DNA of 26,108 nt, from positions 1 through 26,108 of IMG/VR virus record IMGVR_UViG_3300004461_000687. One strand, 5' to 3'. Position numbers and translations under genes: made by a program. The DNA comes from a virus. Shown here in pieces: positions 2,649-24,200 of the stretch. Numbering within the stretch: position 1 is the first letter of the stretch; every line of letters begins with the position of its first letter. The notes under the pieces are model-generated. The model did not search any database. It saw only the letters and a program-made list of their open reading frames with translations, and was not told the DNA's origin.

Positions 2649-2945
2649 ATGACAAAAGGAGTTGGAACAAAATTTGACAATCGTTTGGCTAAGTCAATCG
2701 ATCCGTCTTTGATATTGGGCCAAAGCCTTCACATAATGACTACTCAAGCATACGGACAGTGGGTTTTGAATCTAAGGCTTCATAGAAACACCCCGTCAAT
2801 GTCTGGATACATGGGATACACTAAACAAGGCTTCATGCTTACAAGAGATGAGGCGAGAGATTTAGGCAATAGCCTCATGGATTTGGTCGCAAATGATGAT
2901 GCTTGGATTGATGATGAACAAGGAGTTGAAGATCTTGATGACTAA
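2649..2945 (+). CDS. Hypothetical acidic-tailed protein (98 aa)
   Basis: The frame has ATG at 2640 (overlapping the previous stop) and at 2649. I chose 2649 because the GAGGA motif ends directly against the 2640 codon but lies about 9 bases before 2649. The protein has a basic, beta-looking middle (QWVLNLRLHRN), then a helix with the pattern LTRDEARDLGNSLMDLV and a very acidic C-terminus (DDEQGVEDLDD). No known motif was found. The next gene overlaps its end by 8 bases. Confidence 0.65.
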   Translation: MTKGVGTKFDNRLAKSIDPSLILGQSLHIMTTQAYGQWVLNLRLHRNTPSMSGYMGYTKQGFMLTRDEARDLGNSLMDLVANDDAWIDDEQGVEDLDD

Positions 2946-3330
2946 GGAAAAATGGGATGCGTTGATTGAATCCGGTGGAGAACAAATTGAACATTTGGCT
3001 ATGCGCGTTTTCGATGAGGATGAATTGCTACAAGAAAGAATTGCTGAATTAACATTCAATATGTGGGAGGAATTGATGAAGAAACCTCCCCGTTCACCTG
3101 ATTCTTTGGCGGCTGATGTATTCTACATTGTTTGTAAAATGACTGGCAATCGAGTGTCGGTAGCAAATATGAAAATATATACCGATATGGTTTATGGAAA
3201 GCCATTGAGGGTCATTCCTCGTTCTAAAATTACTAAATCGAAATGGCCGGTTGAAGAAAGAGAGAAAGAAATTATTCTACGGCATTTACCTGATGAAGAA
3301 GCATACAACGACATGGTTAAGGAATGGTGA
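2938..3330 (+). CDS. Helical protein, possible single cyclin-box (TFIIB-like) repeat (130 aa)
   Basis: The start ATG 2938 (MTKEKWDAL) is preferred over an upstream in-frame run of ATGs that lies inside the preceding gene. Residues about 50-85 (RSPDSLAADVFYIVCKMTGN, then RVSVANMKIYTDM) resemble one cyclin-box repeat of archaeal TFB/TFIIB, where a slAAa-YIa segment is followed by a gap and a second helix pair. Only one such repeat and no N-terminal zinc ribbon are present, so this is not a full transcription factor. It could be a viral TFB mimic or an unrelated helical protein. The following gene is a DNA methyltransferase. The existence of the gene is much surer than the cyclin-box idea. Confidence 0.65.
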   Translation: MTKEKWDALIESGGEQIEHLAMRVFDEDELLQERIAELTFNMWEELMKKPPRSPDSLAADVFYIVCKMTGNRVSVANMKIYTDMVYGKPLRVIPRSKITKSKWPVEEREKEIILRHLPDEEAYNDMVKEW

Positions 3331-3332
3331 TT

Positions 3333-4667
3333 ATGTCTTTTGAATTGGTTCAAGGGAATTGTCTTGAAGCCATGAAAAAAATGTCAAGCAATAGTGTGCA
3401 TTCAATTGTCACTGATCCGCCATACGGATTATCCTTTATGGGTAAAAAGTGGGATTATGATGTCCCTTCTATTGAGATTTGGGAAGAGGCTTTGAGAGTC
3501 TTGAAACCCGGAGGACACTTGCTCTCATTTGCTGGCTCTCGCACTTATCATCGAATGGCGGTGAACATTGAGGATGCTGGCTTTGAAATAAGAGACCAGA
3601 TAATGTGGATATATGGTTCAGGGTTTCCGAAAAGTCACAACATAGGTAAGGCAATGGATGGCAAAATAGGGAAACAATCACAAGGTTTTTCTGCAAGCGG
3701 AGATGATGGAAGAAAAGCAGAATTAAAACAAAATCTTAGTTTTAGAAGTGATTATGGATATAAGTTTGAACCAACATCAGACAATGCTAAACAATGGGAA
3801 GGGTGGGGAACTGCCTTAAAACCCGCCCATGAGCCTATTGTCGTCGCCCGTAAGCCTCTCATAGGCACTATCGTTGAGAATGTGCTTAAGCATGGCGCAG
3901 GCGGCTTGAACATTGATGGTTGCCGCATCGGAACTGATGAAGACTTGAATGGTGGTGCGTATGCACAAAATGGAACTCGAAGGGATGATGGGTGGGGTAT
4001 GCAAAGAGGGGAAGCAGGTGAATACGCGCAACCGTCAGGTCGCTTTCCTGCCAACATAATTTTCGATGAAGAAGCAGGTGCTATTCTTGATGAGCAAAGC
4101 GGAACCACGAAATCCGCACTAAGACCGCCTACGGGAAAGGCTCTTTTTGCATCCAACGATCCCAACCGTTCTGTGAAATGGAATGCAAATAATGTTAAAG
4201 ACACAACGACAAGGGGGCATAGCGACTTCGGCGGTGCTTCTCGCTTCTTTTACTGCGCCAAACCGAGCAAACAAGAAAGGAATGCGGGGTGCGAGGGTTT
4301 AGAAGCAAAGGTAAAATATAGTGATTTTGGGTTAAATCATAGGGTTGAAAACAACATCAAAACCAACAAAAGAACAAATGAAGAAGCGGCCTCAACGCTC
4401 AATAACCACCCAACGGTAAAGCCCGTTGCTTTGATGAAATACCTTTGCCGACTTGTCACACCTCCAAATGGAATCGTTTTAGATCCCTTTTTAGGCAGTG
4501 GGACTACGGGGATTGCCGCAACACATCTCGATTTTAATTTCATTGGAATCGAATTAAGCGAAGAATACATGGAAATAGCGCGACACAGAATCAAAAGTCA
4601 TGTTGATGTGAAAGAAACGATTTTAATAGAAAAGGAAAAGCAAAAGTCATTGTTTGATAACTGGTGA
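3333..4667 (+). CDS. DNA methyltransferase, beta class, DPPY type (444 aa)
   Basis: This protein transfers methyl from S-adenosylmethionine to DNA bases. The catalytic motif IV DPPY is at residues 28-31 near the N-terminus, and the SAM-binding motif I (DPFLGSGTT) is near residue 384. The order IV, target recognition, I defines the beta class of amino-methyltransferases. DPPY favours N6-adenine, although N4-cytosine is possible. The long middle (about 110-370) is the target-recognition region. The start ATG 3333 has AAGGA about 9 bases upstream; ATG 3324 in the same frame has none. No restriction endonuclease lies beside it, so it is an orphan enzyme, usual in viruses that shield their DNA from host restriction. 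The next gene overlaps by GTGA. Confidence 0.92.
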   Translation: MSFELVQGNCLEAMKKMSSNSVHSIVTDPPYGLSFMGKKWDYDVPSIEIWEEALRVLKPGGHLLSFAGSRTYHRMAVNIEDAGFEIRDQIMWIYGSGFPKSHNIGKAMDGKIGKQSQGFSASGDDGRKAELKQNLSFRSDYGYKFEPTSDNAKQWEGWGTALKPAHEPIVVARKPLIGTIVENVLKHGAGGLNIDGCRIGTDEDLNGGAYAQNGTRRDDGWGMQRGEAGEYAQPSGRFPANIIFDEEAGAILDEQSGTTKSALRPPTGKALFASNDPNRSVKWNANNVKDTTTRGHSDFGGASRFFYCAKPSKQERNAGCEGLEAKVKYSDFGLNHRVENNIKTNKRTNEEAASTLNNHPTVKPVALMKYLCRLVTPPNGIVLDPFLGSGTTGIAATHLDFNFIGIELSEEYMEIARHRIKSHVDVKETILIEKEKQKSLFDNW

Positions 4668-6127
4668 TTCATTTGTCGTTTTATGATTTTAGGGTCGTTG
4701 CTGAAACCTCTCGGATACTCCATAAAATGAAACGCCCACAGCGAACACTGTCTGGTTGTTTAGCAGGGACTATGGCCGACCAATGGCCCGTCGTTCACTT
4801 TTTTTATTCCCCTTCATCTCCTGTGCGTTTGAGCGACGAGGATCTCCGAGAGATTTTCTTTCACCTTACCGACGCATATCCAAGTGAAATCGAAGACAAC
4901 CCTGATTTGATAATGGCCTTGTCAAGACTCTCTCAAGCGGATAAAACAACAGTGACGCTTGGCAGGGTGAGTCAAGTTATAGAACAAATCCTCTCAAATG
5001 ATAGGGACAATGAACAAAGAGCGATGATATTACAGCCCTTGTATTCAAGAATCAATGAAGTGGATATGCGAAGTGTCATTCGCCGCCTTTCTTTTTTCCC
5101 CACCGTCGCTAAGAGAACATGGATCATATCGGCACTGGCAATAGCAAATGATGTGCCGTTCAGCGTTATGCGCCGGTCTTGTTTAATCACTGGTTTGAAT
5201 CAGGTCGCACACTTATGTTCGATTAAAGACTACGATGCAATCATAGAAGCCCAAACACCACGCATCAATAATGGTATAATCATCCCCACGCCCTTGTCAA
5301 AGAAAATTGACGCTGTTCGCTTTTCAAAGTGCCTTGTCGATTCACCCCAAGGCGAATTCATAACTGTGCATAAAGGCGAAGAATCCATCGCCATATTTGA
5401 TTCGGCAGGTCATGTCGTTGAAGAAACGGTTATATCAAGTGACATCATGCCTATGTGGTCTATTCCCCTTACTGTATTACCAGACGGGGTTTATTTGGCC
5501 GAATATGCCGATGGTAGAGAGATGGAGGTTTTGATTTTAGATTGTTATACCGCCGCCCCTAATTTGTCTTTAATCGAAAGGCGAGAGCAAATACCAAACA
5601 TTATTTTGAAACCTATGCAAGAAGCACCGTTCCCTAAAGCGGCTGAACAAAACAACAAGAATGCACTTTTACTATGGAATCCATCATCACTGCTTACTTA
5701 CGAAAATACTCAAGACGAGGTGGTGCTGATAGATCATAATGCAAATCTGTGCATCTTTAGGGTCTTAAGCGGCATTTGGGGCGAAGTCGTTGAAAACGGG
5801 GGCATCCGCTTGGCGAAGTGGCGGATTGGTGCTGTCGATGCCGACGATTATATGCCGGTGGGTGTCGTTGAAGCATCAGTAGATGTAAGCAAAGAATTAA
5901 CGAAATACTGCGAGGATTCAAGCGCATACGAGGGCGAAAATGTTGCATTGAAAACGCCTGTCTTTGTCGAAGTAGATGTGATTTCATCTGGATTTGGGGT
6001 TTTGGGAGGATATGTTCAAGGCCGGATTGCCAGCGTAGCGCATAATGCGGGCAAACGAAATGTGGTTCGCGTAGAACAATTAGATTTCTTAAATCAGGAT
6101 GGGGATTTTGGAGATGATGAAGGATGA
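4664..6127 (+). CDS. ATP-dependent DNA ligase-like protein lacking the catalytic lysine (487 aa)
   Basis: The sequence follows the layout of archaeal/eukaryal ATP-dependent DNA ligase. A helical DNA-binding domain lies at about 8-190 (ETSRILHKMKR resembles the usual aTssRleK start), a nucleotidyltransferase-like region at about 215-350, and an OB-fold-like end from about 383 (LAKWRIGAVDADDYMPVGVV). ERREQI near 305 matches the ligase motif IIIa region. Aligning SPQGEFITVHK (227-237) with the family pattern KYDGERVQIHK puts Ser at the AMP-accepting lysine and Gln at the motif Asp. The motif IV Lys also seems absent. The product is therefore probably inactive as a ligase and may bind DNA structurally. 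The GTG start at 4664 is kept because the homology begins within the first ten residues. Confidence 0.75.
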   Translation: MIHLSFYDFRVVAETSRILHKMKRPQRTLSGCLAGTMADQWPVVHFFYSPSSPVRLSDEDLREIFFHLTDAYPSEIEDNPDLIMALSRLSQADKTTVTLGRVSQVIEQILSNDRDNEQRAMILQPLYSRINEVDMRSVIRRLSFFPTVAKRTWIISALAIANDVPFSVMRRSCLITGLNQVAHLCSIKDYDAIIEAQTPRINNGIIIPTPLSKKIDAVRFSKCLVDSPQGEFITVHKGEESIAIFDSAGHVVEETVISSDIMPMWSIPLTVLPDGVYLAEYADGREMEVLILDCYTAAPNLSLIERREQIPNIILKPMQEAPFPKAAEQNNKNALLLWNPSSLLTYENTQDEVVLIDHNANLCIFRVLSGIWGEVVENGGIRLAKWRIGAVDADDYMPVGVVEASVDVSKELTKYCEDSSAYEGENVALKTPVFVEVDVISSGFGVLGGYVQGRIASVAHNAGKRNVVRVEQLDFLNQDGDFGDDEG

Positions 6128-6266
6128 GAAAGAGAGTGGGCTGGCATGGATATTTTTGAAGGCGTTGATTCTAATTCCTCCGTTAATGATTCTGATAGTA
6201 GCCTTAGCGATAGGGATCGCAATCCTATACCCTCTTATGATGTTAAAGAACAAGATGAGCGCATAA
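6114..6266 (+). CDS. Predicted small membrane protein (50 aa), overlapping two genes
   Basis: This short frame runs between two longer genes. It starts at ATG 6114 (or 6117, with GGAG 3 bases upstream), overlaps the end of the ligase-like gene by 14 bases, and continues for 121 bases under the next gene in another frame. The product begins with a charged MMKDEKESG, then has an almost uninterrupted hydrophobic run at residues 10-44 (WIFLKALILIPPLMILIVAL and on), and ends KNKMSA. That is one long or two short membrane spans with a Pro-Pro kink. A holin-like or other small viral membrane role is possible but unproven. The hydrophobic pattern could also be a by-product of the overlapping Ser/Asp-rich frame, hence moderate confidence. 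Confidence 0.5.
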   Translation: MMKDEKESGLAWIFLKALILIPPLMILIVALAIGIAILYPLMMLKNKMSA

Positions 6267-6625
6267 GTCCACTGGTCTTACAAACGCTCTCCTTGATTGA
6301 ATACTTTCGAGCCGATATAGTGTGCCAATTTAGCAATGAACGCCCCTGTGGTTATTTGATTAGACCGCAAATTTGGTTTTTACGGATTACGGAACCCATC
6401 AAAGGCCACTTGGATTCTATTGGAGTCAAACCTCAAAAGCGATACACTAAAGCGAGCGACATTACCAAAATTTTGCATTCGATAAAACAAATTGAATCAA
6501 TTATTAAAAACCAACGAGGGCTTCATCTCGTTAAACAGTTAAATGGAATACTGCGGCAACCTTCTACACATAATGAAGTCCTAAAGGCACTTGATTTAAT
6601 CGAACAATCTCCAGAGAGGCTTTAA
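6146..6625 (+). CDS. Hypothetical protein with disordered acidic N-terminus and helical core (159 aa)
   Basis: The frame opens at ATG 6146 with weak Shine-Dalgarno support. Residues 1-38 are Ser/Asp/Asn-rich and look disordered; this stretch overlaps the small membrane-protein frame at 6114-6266. From about residue 42 the sequence is a helical domain (SPLVLQTLSLIEYFRADIV and KILHSIKQIESIIKNQRGLH). If the membrane gene is real, translation here might start later, for example at TTG 6293, which would remove the odd N-terminus. No family is recognised. The gene ends at the CTTTAAG box of the first repeated regulatory element. Confidence 0.65.
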   Translation: MDIFEGVDSNSSVNDSDSSLSDRDRNPIPSYDVKEQDERISPLVLQTLSLIEYFRADIVCQFSNERPCGYLIRPQIWFLRITEPIKGHLDSIGVKPQKRYTKASDITKILHSIKQIESIIKNQRGLHLVKQLNGILRQPSTHNEVLKALDLIEQSPERL

Positions 6626-6657
6626 GTGTCAAACCCCCTTGGGTTGGAATGCGAGAA
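6620..6657 (+). promoter_or_regulatory. Repeated intergenic element, copy 1 (TATA-like box plus hairpin)
   Basis: Between the stop at 6625 and the next gene lies CTTTAAG (6620-6626), six bases, then ACCCCCTTGGGTTG (6633-6646), which can form an ACCC/GGGT hairpin, then GAATGCGAGAA. The same order, spacing and most bases recur at 14305-14344, and I saw it nowhere else. CTTTAAG resembles an archaeal TATA box with purine-rich bases upstream, as a BRE would have. The downstream hairpin would then lie near the transcript start. A promoter for the gene set beginning at 6678 is the simplest reading. An RNA control element or processing site is the alternative. Confidence 0.5.
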
Positions 6658-6677
6658 GCACAAACATGGTGAATAAT

Positions 6678-7985
6678 ATGGTATTGAATGAAACATTAAA
6701 GCGACAAATGGAGAAGAACAGTTGGAATGAAGATGAAACGGAGAAGGCTTTTGCCGAATTCGTCAAAGAATCATTCCCCGAAGTATGGGGTGCGGCAGGC
6801 CAAAACCTTGCTAACCTCGATCCCGAAGACTACGATTTCTTTTCATCCTCATGGGAGATTACAACAAACCGCCGAAAGGGGTCTGGTGGCAAGGGTGAAG
6901 TATGGGTTGGTATGCTTGTTGGATATGACGGCGAGCGAGATACAATGCAACGCCAGCGTGACACTGCGGTTTCCGCCGCCGAAGCAAACATCAGCCAAGC
7001 ACTACGGTATGGCATCAAAATCAAAGACCGCCAAATTGGAATCGGTCGTGCGTTTTTGGATTCGGGCAAATGGAAAGTCGCAAACGGCGATGATACCATT
7101 ATTCATTCAGAGGATGTCAAGGGCGATGCAAAACCTCGTTGGGCCATTCCACTATTCAACGGCACACACATTTGCCTTCTCAAAGACGACAAGAAATCGC
7201 CAAAAATGGCTTACATGCCTAAGCGCACTTGGTTCTTCATTGGGAACAAGCAAAGCGAATTCTTCAAAGAAGGCCCGATTGCCGAAATCCTCCCGTTGGA
7301 GTGTTCTTTCGGTGCGGCTGATGTCGATTTGAAAATCCTTCGGCCAATCTCTTTCAAGGCTGAAATGGAGGAAGCATGGACTGGCGACGGTTATGTTCTC
7401 AAGGCTCTCGACATCGAACCGACATACGGGCTTGAATGGGTTCCTGAAGAGATGCGGGCAACCGCTACCAAAATGTTCTCGCCCGACCAATACCTCGCCA
7501 CTACTGCGCCGGTTGTTGATTTGAATGATGCTATGGACTTTCACATGAAGGGCCGTAAAATGCTTCAAAGTGGCAAAGACTTCGGCCCACTGTTTGTCGT
7601 ATCTGGTGTTGTTGATTATGTCGATCACGATGGCAAAGCCCATGAGTGGACTGATGGCGGCTTCAAGCATTCTTTGACTCTTACCAGTCAATCTCTTCGC
7701 CGTGAAGACCCCAACGCTCAAATGTGGATTGATGTTTCACGCACACTTGTTGCCGACCATGAAGCATTCAAGGTCAAGAAGGCCGATGGATGGCATGAAT
7801 ATGCAAAGGGTTCAAGGGTTTGGGTCGTTGTTCGCTCTCGCACATGGGAATCTACTACTGGCGACATCAACCTCAACATGGATGCCAAGGGCGTTTATGC
7901 TATGCCTCTACGCTCAATTGTTGCACCGAAGGTTGATGATAACATCAGTGACCTCGGCCACCTCGACCAACCGGGGGGATACTGA
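6678..7985 (+). CDS. Predicted replication/recombination protein, possibly ssDNA-binding (435 aa)
   Basis: Family membership is not certain. The protein is an alpha/beta mixture with several beta-rich stretches, for example EVWVGMLVGYDG near the N-terminal third and SRVWVVVRSRTWESTTGD near the C-terminus, which read like OB-fold strands. It sits directly upstream of a small protein and a Sak4/RecA-like ATPase, where many viruses place their single-strand DNA-binding protein. Its codons end in C clearly more often than those of its neighbours, as in highly expressed genes. Start candidates are ATG 6666 and ATG 6678. I prefer 6678, which has GGTGA 5 bases upstream. It is the first gene after a repeated promoter-like element. 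The ssDNA-binding role is inference. Confidence 0.7.
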   Translation: MVLNETLKRQMEKNSWNEDETEKAFAEFVKESFPEVWGAAGQNLANLDPEDYDFFSSSWEITTNRRKGSGGKGEVWVGMLVGYDGERDTMQRQRDTAVSAAEANISQALRYGIKIKDRQIGIGRAFLDSGKWKVANGDDTIIHSEDVKGDAKPRWAIPLFNGTHICLLKDDKKSPKMAYMPKRTWFFIGNKQSEFFKEGPIAEILPLECSFGAADVDLKILRPISFKAEMEEAWTGDGYVLKALDIEPTYGLEWVPEEMRATATKMFSPDQYLATTAPVVDLNDAMDFHMKGRKMLQSGKDFGPLFVVSGVVDYVDHDGKAHEWTDGGFKHSLTLTSQSLRREDPNAQMWIDVSRTLVADHEAFKVKKADGWHEYAKGSRVWVVVRSRTWESTTGDINLNMDAKGVYAMPLRSIVAPKVDDNISDLGHLDQPGGY

Positions 7986-8267
7986 ATGGGATTCTGGGCT
8001 TCAAACGAGAACGGCGGTATCGCTTCAAAGGGTTCTCCTTGTATTTGGGGGGATTCATTTGCCGATATTCTTGATGCGGCTATGGTAGAAATTGAAGCAA
8101 CCTTTGAGGTTCAAATTGGCCGAAAGCCAACGCCCGAAGAATTGCGTCGTGGACTTATGTTCGCCGCAGGCGGATATTCTCTAAAGGCCAAGGAACAAAA
8201 ATCGGATGAAGTGCTTAAGGAATTGGGCGCATTCGATCCTGATTCAGTCAAGGAGAGTGAAGAGTGA
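7986..8267 (+). CDS. Hypothetical small protein between the SSB-like and Sak4-like genes (93 aa)
   Basis: The start ATG 7986 follows the previous stop directly and is preceded by a GGGGGGAT Shine-Dalgarno. The protein begins MGFWASNENGG, then has two helical segments (FADILDAAMVEIEATF and TPEELRRGLMFAAGGYSL) and an acidic tail. No family is recognised. Its C-rich codon use matches both flanking genes, and it is enclosed between the putative ssDNA-binding protein and the ATPase. It may be an accessory factor of that recombination set, which is inference from context only. Confidence 0.75.
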   Translation: MGFWASNENGGIASKGSPCIWGDSFADILDAAMVEIEATFEVQIGRKPTPEELRRGLMFAAGGYSLKAKEQKSDEVLKELGAFDPDSVKESEE

Positions 8268-9427
8268 TGGCGGGAACAGGATTCTTCGACTCTTGGGAAC
8301 CCAAGGACACCAACAACCCAACGCCTTCAATGCCCACTCCTATGACCCCTGCGGTAGAGGAACCAGTCGTCACCGACGAATGGCCCAAGGGCGACAAAAG
8401 CGAAGGCTTTGAGGATGTATATGATGCAATCAGTAGTGCGATTGACGAACACCCACTGGTGGCGGGAACGCCAGCACCGGCCAAGCCTCCATCCAACAAC
8501 CCTGCATGGGCGGCAATCGCCAAGGCTCGCATTCAAGCGGCCAAGCCGAATACCACTACCTATGTGTTCAATGCCATTTCAGGCCATCCTAAGTCCGGCA
8601 AAACCGGAGTTGCGTTGGATAGCCTTGCTGATGAAGAGATCGAAGCGGGTGCTGAAATTATCCACATCGACTTTGACATGGGCGGCGAATCGACAAGAGC
8701 CGCACACCATCATGGTAAAACCAACATCCTCACGATCAATCCTTGGATACTGCATAAGAATCCAAGCCGTGTGCCTTATGATTTCCCCGCCACTTATCAA
8801 AATGTGATGGATATTCTACTGGCCGCACAGGAACAGTCCGAGATTCAAGATGCCTATGTTGTTGAACATGGCGAATTGCCAAGGCCGTATTTGAAGACGG
8901 TCGTTTTCGATGGCGCAGGCCACTGGCTCAACATCTGTGAAACGATGATGAAGGTTGAAGACTTGGAGTTGGGTGATGATGGGATTGCTGTTTCAGGCAA
9001 GAAGGCCACCGTTCAAATTGGCAGGTTCAATTGGAACATCCGAAAGAACCGCTACAATAGTGCTATGACTGCATTAACCGAATTATGCCGCAGTGGGATC
9101 CACTGCTACCTGATTACGCACCTCAAGGACTCTTACGACTCCAACGGGAACGAGATTGCAGGTGCGGAGGTTCCTAATTGGTTGAAAGGAACCGAGAAGT
9201 GGCTACAACAGCGCACAGTCATGGAGACTGTCAAGGAACGCAACGAAAAGGGCGAATTGACCGGTAGCGTGAAATCATACGCTGTCCTCGTTGAAAACCG
9301 CACTTCTTTGAAGACTCAAGGCAAAGTCTTGGTCTTTGAACAAAACAAAGAAGGCGGCACATGGCATGGTTGGAAAGGCTTGCGAGATGGTTCCTTTGAA
9401 CACCCTGATGATGTTATTGCGGAGTGA
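8267..9427 (+). CDS. Sak4/RecA-fold ATPase (386 aa)
   Basis: This is a RecA-fold P-loop ATPase of the Sak4 type, proteins that work with a single-strand annealing or ssDNA-binding partner in viral recombination. Walker A is GHPKSGKT at residues 106-113. The strand IIHIDFDMG follows, then Walker B TVVFDGAG with Asp 215, and ITHLKDS near 283-289 matches the sensor-like segment of the family. About 95 Pro/Thr-rich residues precede the core and are probably a disordered linker. ATG 8267 overlaps the previous stop as TGATG; a GTG at 8264 would add one residue. Codon use is C-ending, like the two genes upstream. It is followed by a Cas4/RecB-like nuclease, a common pairing. Confidence 0.82.
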   Translation: MAGTGFFDSWEPKDTNNPTPSMPTPMTPAVEEPVVTDEWPKGDKSEGFEDVYDAISSAIDEHPLVAGTPAPAKPPSNNPAWAAIAKARIQAAKPNTTTYVFNAISGHPKSGKTGVALDSLADEEIEAGAEIIHIDFDMGGESTRAAHHHGKTNILTINPWILHKNPSRVPYDFPATYQNVMDILLAAQEQSEIQDAYVVEHGELPRPYLKTVVFDGAGHWLNICETMMKVEDLELGDDGIAVSGKKATVQIGRFNWNIRKNRYNSAMTALTELCRSGIHCYLITHLKDSYDSNGNEIAGAEVPNWLKGTEKWLQQRTVMETVKERNEKGELTGSVKSYAVLVENRTSLKTQGKVLVFEQNKEGGTWHGWKGLRDGSFEHPDDVIAE

Positions 9428-9432
9428 TCCTA

Positions 9433-10473
9433 ATGGTATTGAAAATCAAACCGCCCAAGGCATATCCTGTCCCTAATGCGGATGGTTTGAATTCGACATA
9501 CGCTTGGCATCCGGGTATGCGAGATTATGACGGCAAAGGAAAGGTGATACTACGCGTTTCTAAATCCTCATTGGGCGCATTTCAATTTTGCCAACAGCAG
9601 TATTTCATCAAGTATGTTTTAGGAGTCAAAGAGCCTTCGACTGATGACATGACGAGAGGAACAAATGTTCACGATGCAGTTGAAGACTTTTACAATGACC
9701 TTGATGTTGATGAAGTGTTAAAATTAACTTATAAGGATGAATTAGACACACAGCAAATTTACGATCATTTCTTGTCTAAAATCCCCACCTCGTCTAAGGA
9801 GAAGGAATGGGGCGGAGTCATTACGCCATCAGCCCCGTTTGCCTTAGATGAAGGACAGCACTTAGACCGATTTATGAAGGCGGAGGCTGTTCGGTTCGCA
9901 AATAGCAATGTCGAACACTTCATACCATCAGGGAACGAGATTTCAAGAGATGTTGTCGTATCAATTGATGTAGGCAACACATCTGTTTTGGTTCATTTGA
10001 CCGGAATTATAGATCGTGTCTTCACTGATGAAGAAGGTCGTTTGCACATTCACGAATTAAAGACTGGTGCTTGGAAATTAAACAACAAAACGAAATTAGA
10101 TGGTATGAGAAAAGAAATGGCTTTTTATGCTTATATGATTCAAAAGTCGGATGGCATAGAAACCTCATATTGGGGTTGGGATCATACCAAAGGAGTGAAG
10201 GATTCTGGCGAAGACCGGATTTATCGCTTTATCGAACCTGTTCAAATTGCGGGCATCACAGGGATGCTCAAAGACCTTACGAGCCTTGTTGAATCGCACA
10301 TGGCTTACTTCGGGGGATATTCCGGCGATTCGTATGAAATTCTATCTGGTGGTGCTGAAAGGTTCATCTGTGAGCCTTGGTGCAGGGTCAAAGGATACTG
10401 CCCCAAATACGAGAGAGCCTTAATGCCCTATGATATGAAACAACAAATAACAGGAGATGCAAAGAATGACTGA
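9433..10473 (+). CDS. Cas4/RecB-like PD-(D/E)XK exonuclease with four-Cys signature (346 aa)
   Basis: This is a nuclease of the RecB/Cas4 superfamily. Visible elements are the N-terminal VSKSSLGAFQFCQQQYFIKY (Cys 53), GTNVH with His 80, an Asp in GIIDRV (194), the E-x-K of HELKTG (E208, K210), and a helix (EMAFYAYM) replacing the usual QxxxY. Cys 313, 317 and 323 (CEPWCRVKGYC) with Cys 53 make the one-plus-three Cys pattern that holds a 4Fe-4S cluster in Cas4 and AddB. The start ATG 9433 has GGAGTG six bases upstream; the in-frame GTG 9424 has none. Next to the Sak4-like ATPase, it probably resects DNA ends for viral recombination. There are no other CRISPR genes nearby. Confidence 0.87.
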   Translation: MVLKIKPPKAYPVPNADGLNSTYAWHPGMRDYDGKGKVILRVSKSSLGAFQFCQQQYFIKYVLGVKEPSTDDMTRGTNVHDAVEDFYNDLDVDEVLKLTYKDELDTQQIYDHFLSKIPTSSKEKEWGGVITPSAPFALDEGQHLDRFMKAEAVRFANSNVEHFIPSGNEISRDVVVSIDVGNTSVLVHLTGIIDRVFTDEEGRLHIHELKTGAWKLNNKTKLDGMRKEMAFYAYMIQKSDGIETSYWGWDHTKGVKDSGEDRIYRFIEPVQIAGITGMLKDLTSLVESHMAYFGGYSGDSYEILSGGAERFICEPWCRVKGYCPKYERALMPYDMKQQITGDAKND

Positions 10474-10981: not shown

Positions 10982-11116
10982 ATGCGTAAGGAGTGCAAAA
11001 ACACCAGTTGCACGACGATGATTTCAACCACCGATGGTCGAAGGAGGAATCGTTGCGCTCGGTGTTGTAGATTGCTTAGAGAGAAAAGAGAGGCGGGCAA
11101 GAATGGAAAGGTATAG
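10982..11116 (+). CDS. Very small zinc protein (44 aa)
   Basis: A 44-residue frame fills the apparent gap before the second methyltransferase. It starts at ATG 10982, preceded by GGCGGA, and ends inside the methyltransferase start (14-base overlap). The product begins MRKECKNTSCTTM and continues with GRRRNRCARCCRLLREKREA. Two Cys pairs (CKNTSC and CARCC) are separated by a basic stretch, a compact zinc finger. The length and Cys spacing resemble short phage zinc proteins of unknown role. The gene falls below common length cut-offs and would normally be missed. Confidence 0.62.
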   Translation: MRKECKNTSCTTMISTTDGRRRNRCARCCRLLREKREAGKNGKV

Positions 11117-12239
11117 CATTTTGTTGGGGGATTGTAAGAAGACCCTTGCCACCTTGCCTTCGGAATCAGTGCATTGTTGCATCACTTCGCCTCCGTATTT
11201 TGGACTTAGGGATTATGGCATGGATGAGCAAATCGGCCTTGAAGAAACACCTGATGAATTTATCGAATCATTGGTAGATGTGTTTAGAGAAGTCAAGCGT
11301 GTGTTGAGAGATGATGGCACATTATGGATCAACATAGGAGATTCATACTGCGCCGGTAGTCGAAATACTTCTACAATTCAAACGATGTCTGAAAAGCATA
11401 GAGGCGAACCTTTGACCCGTCGCAACAAAGCAACAGGTGACATCAAGAATAAGGATTTGATAGGAATACCTTGGATGCTTGCCTTTGCTCTAAGGGCCGA
11501 TGGTTGGTATTTGCGCCAAGACATAATTTGGTCTAAACCAAATTGTATGCCTGAATCCGTTAAAGATCGTTGCACTAAATCACATGAATATGTTTTTCTT
11601 TTGAGTAAATCGCCGCAATACTTCTACGACCACGCCGCAATCAAAGAAATAACAGAAGACAACAAAGGAACGAGATCGAAGCGCAGTGTATGGCATGTGT
11701 CTCCAAAACCATATTCCGAGGCACACTTCGCAGTGTTCCCTCCTGAATTGATTGAGCCTGCTGTTTTAGCAGGGGCTTCAAGCGGAGGTTGTTGTTCTAA
11801 ATGCCTCGCTCAATATGAAAGAAAATCAGGTAGGTTATGTGAAAAATGTTCTTTTTTGATACCGACCCAAGCAAAGGAATGCTCAAACTGTGGTTATCGC
11901 AACACTGAATGGCTTAACGGGAGAGTTGAAAATTCGTCTAAAAGGGCGGGCGAAGACAACACCGTTGGGGCTTTAGTCGCTCGTAAAAAGGTGATGGAGA
12001 GTGCGACAGTAGTAAGCAAGGAGTATTACCCAACATGCGATTGCGATGCTGAAAAAACTCCTTGCACAGTGCTTGACCCATTCGGAGGTTCAGGAACTAC
12101 TGCTGGCGTTGCTATCAAAAATGGCCGCAATGCGATTCTATGTGAATTGAATGAGGAATATGCCGATTTAATACCGCAAAGGATTAAGCAAATCACTAAT
12201 GGCTTCGTTGCAGGGCAAATGACTTTGGGGGATTATTGA
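11103..12239 (+). CDS. DNA methyltransferase, beta class, SPPY (N4-cytosine) type, with zinc-ribbon insert (378 aa)
   Basis: This SAM-dependent DNA methyltransferase has motif IV as TSPPYFGLRDYG (SPPY 29-32) and motif I as DPFGGSGTT near 325, so it is beta class. SPPY is typical of N4-cytosine enzymes. The region 230-263 holds CCSKC, CEKC and CSNCG. The first pair is usual in this phage family, but the CEKC/CSNC unit looks like an extra RanBP2-like zinc ribbon in the target-recognition part. ATG 11103 (MERYSILLGD) is chosen because the DNA-MTase homology begins right there. An upstream in-frame ATG at 11034 would add 23 unrelated residues inside the tiny zinc gene. No cognate nuclease is present. 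Confidence 0.9.
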   Translation: MERYSILLGDCKKTLATLPSESVHCCITSPPYFGLRDYGMDEQIGLEETPDEFIESLVDVFREVKRVLRDDGTLWINIGDSYCAGSRNTSTIQTMSEKHRGEPLTRRNKATGDIKNKDLIGIPWMLAFALRADGWYLRQDIIWSKPNCMPESVKDRCTKSHEYVFLLSKSPQYFYDHAAIKEITEDNKGTRSKRSVWHVSPKPYSEAHFAVFPPELIEPAVLAGASSGGCCSKCLAQYERKSGRLCEKCSFLIPTQAKECSNCGYRNTEWLNGRVENSSKRAGEDNTVGALVARKKVMESATVVSKEYYPTCDCDAEKTPCTVLDPFGGSGTTAGVAIKNGRNAILCELNEEYADLIPQRIKQITNGFVAGQMTLGDY

Positions 12240-13337: not shown

Positions 13338-13601
13338 ATGACTGATGAAGACGATGATATTGAAGCAATAAAGCGAAAGAAAGCCGAAGAGATGTTGAAG
13401 AAGCACCACGATGGAGAGATTTCACCTGAAGTATTAAGTTGGTCTTTTCGATACAACCTTGAAAGTCAATTTCACGAAATCGTTCAAAACGGTGAACGCT
13501 TAGTCGCTATTACTCAAGACGCAAATTGGGCTAATTTGGTTTGCGATTTGTTGAACAGTGTTGAATTGGCAAACAAGGTAGTTGAATCGCATGACGGATA
13601 A
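13338..13601 (+). CDS. Hypothetical small acidic/helical protein (87 aa)
   Basis: ATG 13338 (MTDEDDDIEAIKRKK) is chosen because AAGGGGAT lies about 8 bases upstream; the longer frame back to 13293 lies inside the primase gene. The first 25 residues are charged (DDDIEAIKRKKAEEML), slightly reminiscent of the N-terminus of PDCD5-type proteins, but the rest (VLSWSFRYNLESQFHEIV, LVCDLLNSVELANKVVE) does not follow that family. It is predicted all-helical, without Cys motifs. It sits between the primase and the nuclease, with an 11-base overlap with the latter. Confidence 0.65.
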   Translation: MTDEDDDIEAIKRKKAEEMLKKHHDGEISPEVLSWSFRYNLESQFHEIVQNGERLVAITQDANWANLVCDLLNSVELANKVVESHDG

Positions 13602-14301
13602 AAAAATACTATACATCGACAACCGAGAACGGTCGGGGCTTGAAAAATTAGTGATGAAATACTGTGATAAAAACAAAATCAAGTATGAGGTTCTTCAAAC
13701 CCACTTGACGGATTACACATTTGGATCCGTTGGCATCGAATCAAAATCAATCAATGATTATATGAGTAGTCTTTTTTCAGGTCATTTAGAACAACAATTA
13801 CAAAACCTCGATGACAATTACGCACAGCCAATTTTACTTGTTTGGGGAACTTTAGATCAGTATGTGGCCCAAGCAACACGAAGCGGTAGAAAAATCCCGT
13901 ATTCTCGCGCATTCTCTTCATACACTGGTTCATTGGCTCGATGGTGCAATGATTTTGACATTCAAATTATCACATTCCCTGATAAATCCTCGGCGGCTCG
14001 CTTCATTTGTAAGCGGTTTGAAAAGGATGGCACATTGTCTTCGACCAATACATATCGAGTCATGCGCCGAACCTCGACAGAAGACATGAGAGTTGATGTT
14101 TTACGGGCGGCTGGATGCAGTGATGCCATCGCAAAGCGAATGTTGGAGGCGCATGGTTCGGTTGCTGAAATAGCAGGCTTAAACGCAAAGACCTTAATGG
14201 GAATAGAGGGAGTTGGTAAAGTGCGGGCTGAAAGAATTATGAACGCCTTGAACAGTGAAGAAGCCATTGTTCAAGAGCGTGTGAAGATGAGTCGGGCATA
14301 G
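13591..14301 (+). CDS. XPF/ERCC4-type structure-specific nuclease with HhH repeats (236 aa)
   Basis: The protein combines an ERCC4 nuclease domain and a C-terminal tandem helix-hairpin-helix, the architecture of archaeal XPF and the nuclease half of Hef, which cut branched DNA such as flaps and stalled forks. Visible are YIDNRER (D10, R12, E13), TDY (40-42) and GIESKSINDY (E50-S-K52, D56), which corresponds to the family signature ERKxxxD with Arg replaced by Ser. The HhH pair spans about 167-221 (VDVLRAAGCSDAIAKRML, GIEGVGKVRAERI). No helicase domain is present. ATG 13591 overlaps the previous stop; a TTG at 13582 is the alternative. A second copy of the repeated promoter-like element follows the stop. 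Confidence 0.87.
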   Translation: MTDKKILYIDNRERSGLEKLVMKYCDKNKIKYEVLQTHLTDYTFGSVGIESKSINDYMSSLFSGHLEQQLQNLDDNYAQPILLVWGTLDQYVAQATRSGRKIPYSRAFSSYTGSLARWCNDFDIQIITFPDKSSAARFICKRFEKDGTLSSTNTYRVMRRTSTEDMRVDVLRAAGCSDAIAKRMLEAHGSVAEIAGLNAKTLMGIEGVGKVRAERIMNALNSEEAIVQERVKMSRA

Positions 14302-15803: not shown

Positions 15804-16496
15804 GTGAATGAAGACTGGTTAAAAGAAAACGGATACATGGCTCTCAAAGCATTTTCTGAAAGCGTGAAAGGAGACATGGATGAAGGTTTCATCGGCGTGA
15901 TCAATAAAGGAGAATTGGATTTTGTCATCTACAATTGCGGAACAGGTCGGAAAATATACACGGAATTGGATTTGCCTTTGATGAGCATTAGCATAGAAGA
16001 GAAGTCCACGAAGGAGGAATTTGTCAAAGCGTTGAAGGAGTCGAAAATGATTATCGGATATGACATTTCAAAATTTGATATGCCGCTAATACAGAAAGCA
16101 TTGGATGAGAAAATTGAAACGCCGTTGAAAGACCTATTGACAATATCTCTTGATGCAACCCAAGCGTATTACGGCAACGAAAGGAAAAGAATACCGCTTC
16201 ACATATTATACAAGAGAAACAGCACCAGCCATCGAAGCAATTTCGTGTCTTACATCGGCTCTCATTATGTTCGATTGAGAGATTGGAGAATGGGAGGAAC
16301 GCGTTCAGTATTGAAGTCTGTGAACCATGAAGTTGTCTTTATCATACTGATAGCACATGCAATTTACAAGACCAATCTCATCAAATTCCCTGATTATGAG
16401 TCGAATAAAACCGTGTCGATGATTTACGACTTCAAAGGTTTAGGGTTGTCTGAATCGGCAACCCCAAACATAGAAGATAAACAGTCATCTGTTTGA
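15804..16496 (+). CDS. RNase H-fold/DEDD exonuclease-like protein, possibly degenerate (230 aa)
   Basis: The GTG start at 15804 is supported by GGAGG about 8 bases upstream. The segment MIIGYDISKFDMPLIQKALD (about 90-109) is very like motif II of DnaQ/PolB-type 3'-5' exonucleases (GYNI-FD-P-L), and it is followed by a helix and a DLLTISLDAT strand. The place where motif I (D-x-E) should stand reads GFIGVINKGELDFVIYN with no D-x-E pair, and motif III is unclear, so activity is doubtful. Two hydrophobic stretches near the C-terminus (VVFIILIAHAIY) look buried rather than transmembrane. It is the last gene of the rightward block and overlaps the convergent methyltransferase by 12 bases. Confidence 0.65.
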   Translation: MNEDWLKENGYMALKAFSESVKGDMDEGFIGVINKGELDFVIYNCGTGRKIYTELDLPLMSISIEEKSTKEEFVKALKESKMIIGYDISKFDMPLIQKALDEKIETPLKDLLTISLDATQAYYGNERKRIPLHILYKRNSTSHRSNFVSYIGSHYVRLRDWRMGGTRSVLKSVNHEVVFIILIAHAIYKTNLIKFPDYESNKTVSMIYDFKGLGLSESATPNIEDKQSSV

Positions 16497-16503
16497 AGAC
16501 TGT
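16479..16503. terminator. Competing hairpins at the convergent gene junction
   Basis: Where the rightward and leftward blocks meet, AAACAG (16479-16484), TCAT, CTGTTT (16489-16494) forms a perfect 6-bp stem. The overlapping ACAGTC (16481-16486) and GACTGT (16498-16503) form a second 6-bp stem sharing ACAG. Both stop codons lie within or next to these stems. On the plus strand the second stem is followed by CTTTT. A bidirectional transcription-stop or transcript-end structure is plausible, but archaeal termination often needs only T-rich runs, so this is tentative. Confidence 0.4.
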
Positions 16504-17873
16504 CTTTTGCCGCCCGCACCTAATTGTCGTCGCATAGCAGGCCGGACATTCCCTCTTGTCTTATTTCGCTTGTAGCGGCGGGCTGTGCGCCCTCTTTTCA
16601 CCTTTCGACTAATTCCCCAAGCCTTTGCCTTTCCTTGCCTTAAGGGGCGGTCGCTGATGGTGTTTTTGGCATATCCCTTGAACTTGCCTTTACCCTTAGT
16701 GATTAAACCCCATGCTTGTTCAAACGGATCTTCACTGGCAAACTTCATATCAGGGTGATTTTCAAACCAATCGAAATCATCCAAATTGTGCATTATCGCT
16801 TCTGGTTTCACCAATGGTTGCTTTTGATTATAATTGCGGTATCTGTCTGGCCGACCCAATAATTGCGTCTTGAATCCATGCTTTTCATACAACGGTGCAA
16901 CAATTGGGTTGTTGGTGGCGACTATCGGCATACCCTCCGCCGCTTGCTCGCCTGCTAATTCAGCAAGTAATTCTTGAGCCTCCCAAGGCATAGCCTCGTC
17001 GTAATTTGCACCTTCACCGCCAGCGTAAGGAGAATCGAGGAACATAAAATCGTCGTTGGGATCTATACTCGGCAATTTGAAGAAGTCGGCAAAGTCCATG
17101 CCCGACCGAATATCAAAATTGCGATACACTGGCGCATTCACGCCATAATCAATTTTTGAACCAGCAGGGAATTTGAATACTTCCGAGTTTGAGGTTTGGT
17201 TCGCCCAACCTTTAGGCATCCTTGCATCTCCCCTCCATGCCATTCTTTGATAACGAGCATACTGTTCCAGCATGTCTCGCATCTCTTGTTCCGACAATTC
17301 TTCTCCTTCTTTCTCCCTGCGAAGATAGTCGTTAAACGAATTTGGTAGCAATGTATCCCAAGTAGAATTGAAGCCAGCCTTTTCTCTTGTCATTCGGCCT
17401 TTAGGAACTGCGCCACGAATGCCCTCATAATATGTTTGTTTAGGCACGACACCATCTTGCATGTATGGTTCCATGTCTAAAACCATGTCATTGTTTTGAA
17501 TACGCCTAAAGACTTCTGGCATGAATCTATTGTAATCAGCAACCAACGCCCTTTGACCCGGATTGACATTTGCTGATGCGTTTAATGCCCCCATGAAAGG
17601 TTCAAGCATACGCCGTCGCCCTCCTGTTTTCTTAGAAGGATTTAGATCCATAGCACGACGCAATGGGCCGATATAATGGGGTTGCGCTTTACTGCCAGTG
17701 TATTTCATTGGCGCAGGTATAATTGAGCCTCTATTTGCTTCGTAATCCCGCATGACTTCTTCAAAGCGTTCTGGCGGGAATGCCTTCATTCCGCCTCTCG
17801 CTTTTTGAATCAAATGTGGCCTAAGTGAACCCCATGCTTGCTCAAATGCGGTCATCTCTCTTTCACCGTTCAT
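16485..17873 (-). CDS. D12-class DNA adenine methyltransferase with terminal FEQAW motifs and basic tail (462 aa)
   Basis: A Dam/D12-type N6-adenine methyltransferase core is visible: motif X as MKYTGSK (56-62), motif I as EPFMGALN (91-98, normally EPFxGxG, so a Gly is lost) and motif IV as DSPY (280-283, normally DPPY). The core is framed by two copies of FEQAWG, at residues 10-15 and 384-389. The last 65 residues are extremely Arg/Lys-rich, like a DNA-condensing tail. It lies in the late virion-gene block, not beside the other methyltransferases, which suggests a virion-associated enzyme. The start is ATG 17873. An in-frame ATG at 17855 would place the motif right at the N-terminus (MTAFEQAW). 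Confidence 0.83.
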   Translation of the reverse strand: MNGEREMTAFEQAWGSLRPHLIQKARGGMKAFPPERFEEVMRDYEANRGSIIPAPMKYTGSKAQPHYIGPLRRAMDLNPSKKTGGRRRMLEPFMGALNASANVNPGQRALVADYNRFMPEVFRRIQNNDMVLDMEPYMQDGVVPKQTYYEGIRGAVPKGRMTREKAGFNSTWDTLLPNSFNDYLRREKEGEELSEQEMRDMLEQYARYQRMAWRGDARMPKGWANQTSNSEVFKFPAGSKIDYGVNAPVYRNFDIRSGMDFADFFKLPSIDPNDDFMFLDSPYAGGEGANYDEAMPWEAQELLAELAGEQAAEGMPIVATNNPIVAPLYEKHGFKTQLLGRPDRYRNYNQKQPLVKPEAIMHNLDDFDWFENHPDMKFASEDPFEQAWGLITKGKGKFKGYAKNTISDRPLRQGKAKAWGISRKVKRGRTARRYKRNKTRGNVRPAMRRQLGAGGKRQSSNR

Positions 17874-21229: not shown

Positions 21230-24200
21230 TCATTTCACCTCAAAGAACCGGCTCTTACTATTGCCGAGAGGCTTTGCTTTCTTATTGTTATCGGCAACAC
21301 CAATCCGACCTAAACCGCCGTCATATTTAGCCCCAATGATGAAATTTTGCTTGTTGTTGGTGCGAATATACATTTTGGCGACAGCGATTATTTTGACTGA
21401 ACCACTTAAAGAAATCTCATTTAATTCATTGGATTCCTTTGCCTTTCTCTTGCTATTGTCTTTTTTGCCTGTTGCCACTTGAATGTCCGAAAGTAGTCCT
21501 TCAATTCCTTTTTCATATTGAGCGATAATTAAATCGGTAGTCCCAAGAGATTGATAATGAGTTGCTTCAAAGACGGCGAATGTGCCTCGGATTCCATGAG
21601 TCGGCAAATCAATTTTAACCATGTCGCCGGGAATGATTGATGAGGCTTTGAGCAAACCATTTATTGTAATCAAAGGCGCACCATTTTCGGCCCGACTTAA
21701 CAATGACTTGGCGATTCGCAGTGCTTCCTTATTTGTTTTCAATCCCGGCACTTCTTTCTTCAAAACCCTTACTAAATTAGAATTTGGACTTGAGCCTGAA
21801 GCGGATCTCATTTTTTCCAAATCCTTCACTGTCACTTCAATTCTTTCGTTTTCAGCAACAATATCCCCTATAATCACGACTTGATTTGGTGAATCAAACA
21901 TTTTACTTACTTGAATATCGCTCGCCCCGCTATCCAAACCAAGACGAATGTTTGTTTCTCTAAAGGTGCTACGAGAATAAATCATTGCACCATTTTCTTC
22001 AACGACCAATTGCCTGCCATCCATTTCAGTCAATGACTTAATGACTTCAAGAATGTTTAAACCTTTGATATTGCGAGCCACATACTCTCCACTATGTTGT
22101 TTCATTAGGCTCAATACAGGGTTTGCGCCAATTTCATTTGAATACTTTGCCCCTTGGTTTTTGATTATGTCTGTTGAAGGATATGGTAAAAATCCAGCGA
22201 TGTTTCCCGCCGAATCATTTAACAAATTCAAAGCCGCATCGGAGGTTCTAAGTCCAATGAAACCATATTGACCCGTCAATACCTCTCCAATTGCTATTTC
22301 TTTTGAGATTAAGTCGCCATCAATGTTCCTAATAGCGATTACATTTGTTTCAGCATCAATGCCAGAAACCCGATATAATTTTTCATTTGAATCAATTAAA
22401 TAAGGCGGGAATTCCCCATTTTCGGTTCCGATGTTATCTTGGATTATGCTTGAACGAATATATTCCTCGACAACGCCTCCGCCCTTGCCATCAAACAATC
22501 GCAACGGCCTTTGAGATCCCATTATGAAATCGCTTGGACTGTATTCAAGTAGCCCACGATAGGATAGATTTGTTTTTGCCACCTTATTTGTCACATTGTC
22601 CCAATTTCTCCAAGTGAAGTCCGATATTTTGTTCAAGACAACGGCGTTATCAATTAAAGAAGGCGCAGTAGGCAGTGAAGGCGTAAATGACCTTTTGTTT
22701 TGAATGGTTTGGGCTGTTGCTGTTCCATCGTTTAGGAACAAAACATCTCCGTGTTCGTATGAGGTAATCTCGTTGTTCACGCCTTTCAAAAGCCGCCCAT
22801 CAACACTTGTGTAGGTCAATTTTCCGGTTTTACCAATTACCGAAAGTGTTCCTGAAGAGGGGAGACTTACTGTTTGTTCTAAGAGGTAAGTGCGAGATGT
22901 TGCACCGCCACCAGTAAAGGTTTGTAGAGCGACAACAGAAGGATAATCACGAAGCATTGTTTTTTGTTGTTGCATTTTGAACTCTTGATCCCTCTTGGCA
23001 TAATCGCCAGCATTACCCGTTCCATCTACCTCATAACTCGATTCCGATTGATACAAAACTTCGTTGCCACCCGATACTGTTGATTGAGAATACCGAGCCT
23101 CTACCGCCGGAATAAACTCTCCCTGTTGCTTTCGGTTTGCATCGGATTTGAAGTGTTGTAGCATGTTTGCGGAGGGTATCAAGTGCCAAACAGCCGTTTG
23201 GTCGTTTGCATCAGGCCATTCCATTTTCAAAGCACCGCTTGAAGATGCCAAAAAATCAATCGCCCCTAAATCACGATCTTGGTTTATCTCAAAAACACCG
23301 TATCTCTTGTCGCGTGTAAATGGTTGAAAACCTAATCCGCCGGTATTGACTGTGGAGGCATTTGCCCCCAAAACCCAACCATCGCTTTGTAGGTTTGAAG
23401 CCCAACCATACATTTTCAATGGTCGAACCAAGCGAACAACATAATCAATGTATTTTCTTTGTGGCTGGTGCGCTTGAGCGAAAGCCCCGTCAAGAACGGA
23501 TTCATTGTTCAAAGACTCTTCAACACGGTTTAGATATGTCTTTCTTAGAATATACACGCCGCCCCACGCTGGCATATCAGCCGCACCACGCACCGACCAA
23601 TAATCCATGCCATGCGTTTGAGCATCGACTCGCACTGTATCATTTGAAACCGTAATTGGCCCCTTCGCCGCATTCCCATCTGGCGACCAATAGGGGTATT
23701 CGTGACTCATAGCAACGGTAGGAGTTGTATAAAGAGATCCGGCGGCGGGATTTGAGCGAACACCAGTTGTCATACCTTGATGCCGACGACTTGTATTATT
23801 GCCCCATGCGGGCAATACAGGGAACATTTGCCCTATTGCTAAATCGCTATGCAAGGATACTGATTTAGTGCCTGTGACTTGATAATCTGTTCTTTTCGCC
23901 GCATTTCTTTCGGATTCGGTTTCAATTACCATTCCAAGCCGAGGCTCGCCTCTCGACTGTATTTGCCGGTGATCGGATATTTCAGAAAGAGGGATAGGTG
24001 CGGCGGCATAAGCGTTTTTCAAACCCCAACCAGTGATAGGATAATGCGTATCGGAAGAATGGTTTGCTACTGCCGCCGCATTTTGGTGTAAAGCCGAACC
24101 TTTGAGCGAATAGTGTTCGCCCGCTTGTCCCAATCTACCTGCGCCTGCAATCAATTCTTGTTTGAACGCATTTGGCGACTCTTCTTGATTGTATGTGAGC

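Follow-up and report, generated by a model that had tools for sequence, protein, structure and literature searches.

Pseudoenzymes are a known kind of protein. Archaeal DNA ligases bind PCNA via their DNA-binding domain, and a split DNA polymerase B (PolB-NTD/CTD) has been published for magroviruses. A ligase gene adjoins the prohead protease gene in a group A magrovirus (PMC7318539), and the published profile of Adrikavirales / Satyavativiridae includes the phrase 'possibly using host replisome' (PMC13108676). Our literature search found no inactive viral ligase and no conserved family of dead DNA ligases; an earlier mention for magroviruses is possible. Here, we analysed a 26,108 nt stretch of viral DNA (the window; IMG/VR record IMGVR_UViG_3300004461_000687, positions 1 to 26,108). 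Computational analysis of one of its genes, termed the pseudo-ligase, and of its homologues showed a ligase fold, catalytic loss in about 50 copies, strong purifying selection, and synteny with a ligase slot.

The pseudo-ligase gene had been described in an initial annotation as a long, intact reading frame of 487 codons, and it is open throughout 4664-6127 (+), beginning at GTG. The true start may be the TTG at 4673, as a relative with 74% identity (L020) has ATG at the equivalent residue. The gene and its parts are as follows.

4664..6127, + strand: pseudo-ligase, 487 aa, ligase fold without catalytic residues; start at GTG 4664 or TTG 4673
4664..5263, + strand: DNA-binding-domain-like part, about residues 1-200, all helical in the model; boundaries approximate
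4826..4852, + strand: near-invariant RLSDEDxRE, residues 55-63; intact ligases have a conserved KK..K here (charge inversion)
5264..5743, + strand: nucleotidyltransferase-like part, about residues 201-360, from the alignment and the model
5342..5353, + strand: motif I site, S227-P-Q-G replacing K-x-D-G, from the sequence and the family alignment
5486..5488, + strand: motif III site, G275; Gly in 47 of 47, where intact ligases have an invariant Glu, from the alignment
5675..5677, + strand: motif IV Lys site, W338; Trp or Arg in 45 of 47, alignment less certain than for motif I
5744..6097, + strand: OB-fold-like part, about residues 361-478; lacks the Arg and Lys of motif VI and has a new conserved SGWGDxGxY

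The ligase call had been made by eye and lies at the limit of what profiles can detect, or beyond it. The only Pfam match of the window protein was to DNA_ligase_A_N, with an E-value (0.097) that amounts to a hint: PF04675 scored 13.3 bits, below its curated cut-off of 24.6, and neither PF01068 nor the NAD-dependent ligase adenylation domain PF01653 matched. A PHROGs search of the same protein returned nothing, and PDB sequences searched with phmmer and a profile hmmsearch yielded no ligase match. The first AlphaFold2 model, built from nine sequences, matched ligases already, yet was poor (pLDDT 53), so the run was repeated with 40 family members (pLDDT 85.4). All 50 PDB matches listed by Foldseek for the latter model were DNA ligases, archaeal ones first (6wbo was the best, with E 1.2e-19; 3rr5, 2cfm, 3gde, and 2hiv were among the others), and its matches to viral structures were also mostly DNA ligases. 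Whole-chain TM-scores against ligases were low, about 0.37, which we attribute to different domain placement. When the family was compared by hhalign with 22 intact viral ligases, collected via a motif I DNA pattern, the alignment spanned 466 columns and three domains (probability 95.7, E 8.9e-9), and a basal family member (L074) matched an intact ligase in plain BLASTP (E 2e-5). According to Foldseek, hhalign, and the secondary structure of the model, the DNA-binding, nucleotidyltransferase, and OB domains are kept in ligase order. The full ligase layout proposed in the initial annotation was thus borne out for all three domains, and the matches to the ligase fold were strong.

We then tallied residues at the catalytic positions of 47 pseudo-ligases and the 22 intact viral ligases. 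Motif I of the window protein reads S227-P-Q-G-E-F-I-T-V-H-K, exactly as annotated. The adenylation Lys was present in none of the 50 copies covering motif I, its place being taken by I, T, S, H, N, E, P, Y, or V. Conservation of the Ser and Gln, which the annotation had raised as a check, was not found: the Lys site drifts freely and the Asp site is mostly Glu, with Gln or Arg as further replacements. The motif I Arg was retained in 14 of the 47, and the Arg of motif Ia and the Glu and Gly of motif IV are gone. The annotated lack of the motif IV Lys also held, the column being Trp or Arg in 45 of 47 pseudo-ligases versus Lys in 22 of 22 intact ligases. Motif V retains its first Lys in one and its second in nine of the 47; in motif VI, the Arg is gone and the Lys has become Ala or Ser in all 47. 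The intact ligases have the catalytic residues at the same positions in 22 of 22 sequences (21 of 22 for motif VI). The columns of motifs IV to VI are less certain than those of motif I, as they were aligned at low identity (about 12%). This residue pattern supports the view that the window protein would be without ATP-dependent DNA ligase chemistry.

The residues still present in the pseudo-ligases (G230, H236, G249, D293, R306, and Y346) are mostly structural. K316 is invariant among them (47 of 47), with Arg in its place in 19 of 22 intact ligases. No conserved Lys was found near motif I; K222, which had been named as a possible alternative and which we rejected as a relocated nucleophile, lies in a column that is Lys in 28 copies and otherwise Arg, Gly, Glu, Asn, or Asp.

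The pseudo-ligase family comprised about 50 IMG/VR loci. A direct scan with the window protein gave one near-copy (97%). The neighbouring ERCC4 nuclease as a query gave seven related virus contigs, all except one of which carried a pseudo-ligase homologue (34-74% identity), and alignments of the first homologues as queries raised the number to 26 loci and then to 51. The homologues have full-length open frames, apart from cuts at contig ends and two cases interrupted within contigs (the L071/L076 pair and L053, whose frame ends at 298 aa). No credible relative was detected in an annotated phage collection (one match, E 8; none with L030 as the query), among the plasmids searched, or in two pattern scans of 84,980 prokaryote genomes. 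Most virus records here are, or may be, fragments; the sole contig seen with ends that overlap as in a complete circular assembly (by 98 bases) was the 96.6 kb G007.

Pairwise dN/dS ranged from 0.026 to 0.076 across the 13 pairs with computable dS; dS is near saturation in the more distant pairs, and the close pairs agree on the ratio. The family also has invariants of its own, foremost RLSDEDxRE. That about 50 homologues are nearly all full-length and open, at such low dN/dS, indicates that the reading frame is not there by chance. With the catalytic residues gone, this supports the suggestion of the initial annotation that the gene is apparently under selection without ligase chemistry.

The genes conserved around the pseudo-ligase in the window are listed below, with cluster labels where gene orders are compared.

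2893..3330, + strand: conserved neighbour of cluster C2, 145 aa; in relatives directly before the pseudo-ligase
6146..6625, + strand: conserved neighbour of cluster C3, 159 aa; weakly like C24 of intact-ligase viruses
6639..7985, + strand: conserved neighbour of cluster C4, 448 aa; homologous to C25, which belongs to the ligase operon in intact-ligase viruses
8264..9427, + strand: Sak4/RadA-like ATPase, cluster C1 (phrog_124, E 1.7e-5), also present in intact-ligase viruses
9424..10473, + strand: PD-(D/E)XK nuclease, same module (E 4.1e-19)
13582..14301, + strand: ERCC4-type nuclease, same module; served as the query that led to the virus family

The gene order is chaperonin - ligase - C24 - C16 - RFC - C25 - RadA-like in intact-ligase viruses and chaperonin - ... 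- pseudo-ligase - C3 - C4 - RadA-like - PD-(D/E)XK - primase-like - ERCC4 in pseudo-ligase viruses. Two records, L072 and L074, have an intermediate order: pseudo-ligase, C3, C16, RFC, C4, RadA-like, PolB. C4 and C25 are homologues according to hhalign (E 5.5e-10, probability 96.6), and C3 and C24 are possibly homologous (E 1e-4, probability 58). The gene orders are colinear, and the pseudo-ligase occupies the same operon slot as the magrovirus-type replication ligase. On a phylogenetic tree, the pseudo-ligases formed one group (100/100) apart from the intact ligases, with L072/L074 on its first fork; the root of this group is unsure, given the long branches to the intact ligases. The colinear slot and the two intermediates indicate that the ligase was inactivated in place, the pseudo-ligase being an inactivated orthologue. 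Head genes are also common to the pseudo-ligase clade and the magrovirus-like viruses. The host of the lineage is probably Poseidoniales, judging from the related magroviruses and the shared chaperonin and head genes (compare PMC5332604).

Several other genes of the window were characterized. An N6/N4 DNA methylase gene (3324-4667) lies between C2 and the pseudo-ligase; its homologues are at different positions in two other records (L115, 14344; L021, 14925), which points to a mobile gene. A second methylase is encoded at 11034-12239, and 16485-17873 (-) encodes a late-strand protein that combines a D12-class adenine methylase-like domain (E 5e-5) with a long basic tail. The 230-aa ORF at 15804-16496 has weak RNase H-like (E 0.002) and PolB-exonuclease (E 0.05) matches and is possibly the remnant of a lost polymerase. 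The 1624-aa product of 21230-26104 (-) contains a concanavalin-like Laminin_G_3 domain (E 9e-9) and is probably a tail or receptor-binding protein.

On balance, we lean towards the explanation that the replication-module ATP-dependent ligase of a marine tailed-virus lineage lost its activity without leaving its slot and was retained as a non-catalytic scaffold. Nicks in the viral DNA would then be sealed by a host ligase, and the pseudo-ligase would hold replication proteins at the viral DNA instead of joining ends. Candidates for the proteins held are the C3 and C4 products, the RadA-like ATPase, or parts of the host replisome. The word 'scaffold' is used here as the default reading for a conserved pseudoenzyme.

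The distribution of charge bears on what the protein may contact. The KK..K of intact DNA-binding domains is replaced by an invariant ED..E in the pseudo-ligases, in a segment aligned without gaps as far as a common invariant Glu (E75). The mean net charge of the nucleotidyltransferase part is -9.6 in the pseudo-ligases versus +2.8 in the intact ligases. For the DNA-binding part, the values are +2.1 and -1.8, respectively; it is slightly more basic overall, and DNA binding thus still seems possible. The inverted charge in the DNA-binding domain, together with the acidic nucleotidyltransferase domain, counts against a simple DNA clamp, one of the roles put forward in the initial annotation, and suggests that the main contact of the pseudo-ligase may now be a protein, not a nick. 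A possible but unlikely alternative is that the three domains still enclose DNA but do no chemistry, protecting nicks or the ends of the genome against nucleases or passing them to the host ligase. The retention of all three domains in order, the more basic DNA-binding domain, and the position of the gene among nuclease, RadA-like, and primase-like genes would suit such a binder, but it would have to work with an invariantly acidic segment in place of the basic one, a strongly altered charge in the nucleotidyltransferase domain, and none of the motif residues that touch a nick.

We compared the replisome genes of records G005-G041 with those of G023-G031, G042, and G043. PolB (PF00136) was found in six of six intact-ligase viruses, and also in L072/L074, versus none of the 12 other pseudo-ligase records (67-108 kb); RFC followed the same pattern. 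No intact ATP-dependent ligase scored above the PF01068 cut-off in the pseudo-ligase records searched, and the same profile, as a control, recovered the intact ligase in 16 of 16 intact-ligase viruses. An NAD-dependent ligase (PF01653) was absent from 17 related records, and no pseudo-ligase was found in the 16 intact-ligase viruses. In G007, with its overlapping ends, no intact ligase, PolB, or RFC was found. The published remark on host replisome use (PMC13108676) would fit a possible relationship of these viruses to Adrikavirales / Satyavativiridae (PP497040). Among other observations on PolB, a match with five stop codons inside was seen in L138 (G031:C1:8362-9405), and in some other intact-ligase viruses the gene is split over two frames.

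Lacking PolB and RFC, the main clade presumably uses host replication proteins, which leaves room for a host-directed decoy or adaptor. Such a protein would bind host PCNA, ligase, or polymerase and either bring the host replisome over to the viral DNA or block host replication; the PCNA binding of archaeal ligases through their DNA-binding domain would favour this. We consider this improbable, since a by-eye look revealed no conserved PCNA-binding box, and the basal L072/L074 have a dead ligase yet keep PolB and RFC, meaning that inactivation preceded dependence on the host polymerase.

Weak PF01068 matches in the pseudo-ligase records led to a second ligase, a head protein roughly 1,140 aa long (1113-1167 aa) encoded in the head module between the portal and the S78 protease / SU10-type major capsid protein. 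The equivalent slot of intact-ligase viruses is occupied by a protein of 827-865 aa that has a clear ligase domain (E 2e-31, VQEKYDGMRIQIHK) and keeps KYDG. The corresponding domain in 13 pseudo-ligase viruses reads VQKMPEGKRM, VQKKPKGKRV, or similar, with the Lys position still K in some copies. Its motif III Glu has become Tyr or Phe, its motif IV Lys has become Arg, and WIKWK has become WVHFA, WIRYA, or similar, with both motif V Lys lost. Examples are as follows.

L048:3775-7260, - strand, and L051:2399-5812, + strand: degenerate, enlarged head-module ligase between the portal and the prohead protease
L108:6104-8662, - strand: intact head-module ligase counterpart in a magrovirus-like virus

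No such protein was matched in the window's own record, as could be expected for a fragment. The computational comparison thus shows a second ligase of the pseudo-ligase clade, in the head module, that was inactivated in parallel. In the haloarchaeal relative HVTV-1, gene 115 (L157:1458-5399; 1313 aa, annotated as 'zeta toxin') occupies a comparable slot, with genes for head assembly on one side and the protease on the other; by this annotation, a different enzyme domain stands in place of the head-module ligase.

The parallel loss also bears on whether the pseudo-ligase could still be an active ligase or nucleotidyltransferase that uses a relocated nucleophile (e.g., the invariant K316, or H236) or another nucleotide. 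K316, mostly Arg in intact ligases, and the retained motif I residues H236 and G230 would be the starting points, but motifs I, III, IV, V, and VI lost their catalytic residues together, metal and phosphate binders included, and the head-module ligase underwent the same loss; we regard continued activity as very improbable. That the gene is a decaying pseudogene open by chance, as the missing catalytic residues and missing partner genes PolB and RFC might suggest, has a negligible probability and is contradicted by the selection data: dN/dS is low in 13 of 13 pairs, almost all of the about 50 copies are complete or truncated only where a contig ends, and new family-specific invariant residues have arisen.

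Returning to the scaffold explanation, the presence of PolB and RFC in L072/L074 and their absence from the main clade imply an order of events. Most economically, both ligases would have died first, and PolB and RFC would have been lost afterwards. We give an even chance to the broader proposal that in this lineage the inactivation of the replication and head-module ligases came before the loss of the polymerase and clamp loader, and that both ligases are now needed as non-catalytic proteins, one as a replication scaffold and the other as a virion or head-assembly component. If so, one virus would use the ligase fold structurally in two of its modules.

The same catalytic loss has affected two unlinked ligase genes in one virus lineage, and the viruses form a natural series, from those with an intact ligase, through those whose ligase is dead but which keep PolB and RFC, to those with a dead ligase and neither PolB nor RFC. 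This series lets one ask what roles ligases have besides sealing and how a virus shifts from its own replisome to that of its host. There is also a warning for annotation: pseudo-ligases pass unnoticed in profile searches, and annotation by fold would label them 'DNA ligase'.

Among known systems, eukaryotic DNA polymerase epsilon has an inactivated polymerase module kept for a structural replisome role (PMC7308368, PMC6265327). It is a precedent in concept alone, with a different fold and system: its dead module is fused to an active one, whereas no active ligase was found in the pseudo-ligase viruses. Archaeal ATP-dependent ligases (Thermococcus, Pyrococcus, Archaeoglobus, and Sulfolobus) were the best Foldseek matches of the pseudo-ligase model; identity to them is about 14%, and the pseudo-ligase has none of their catalytic motifs. 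The head-module ligase was inactivated in the same virus clade but is a different gene in a different module. The intact magrovirus-like replication ligase (about 515 aa) is alike in gene slot, domain order, and length, and shares the motif I G and H, the motif IIIa D, R306, and Y346. It differs in having K, D, and R in motif I, E in motif III, E and K in motif IV, both K in motif V, and R and K in motif VI, without exception or with a single one among the 22 sequences; the pseudo-ligase family has lost these, its nucleotidyltransferase domain is acidic, and a stretch of about 22 residues that follows motif III is missing from it.
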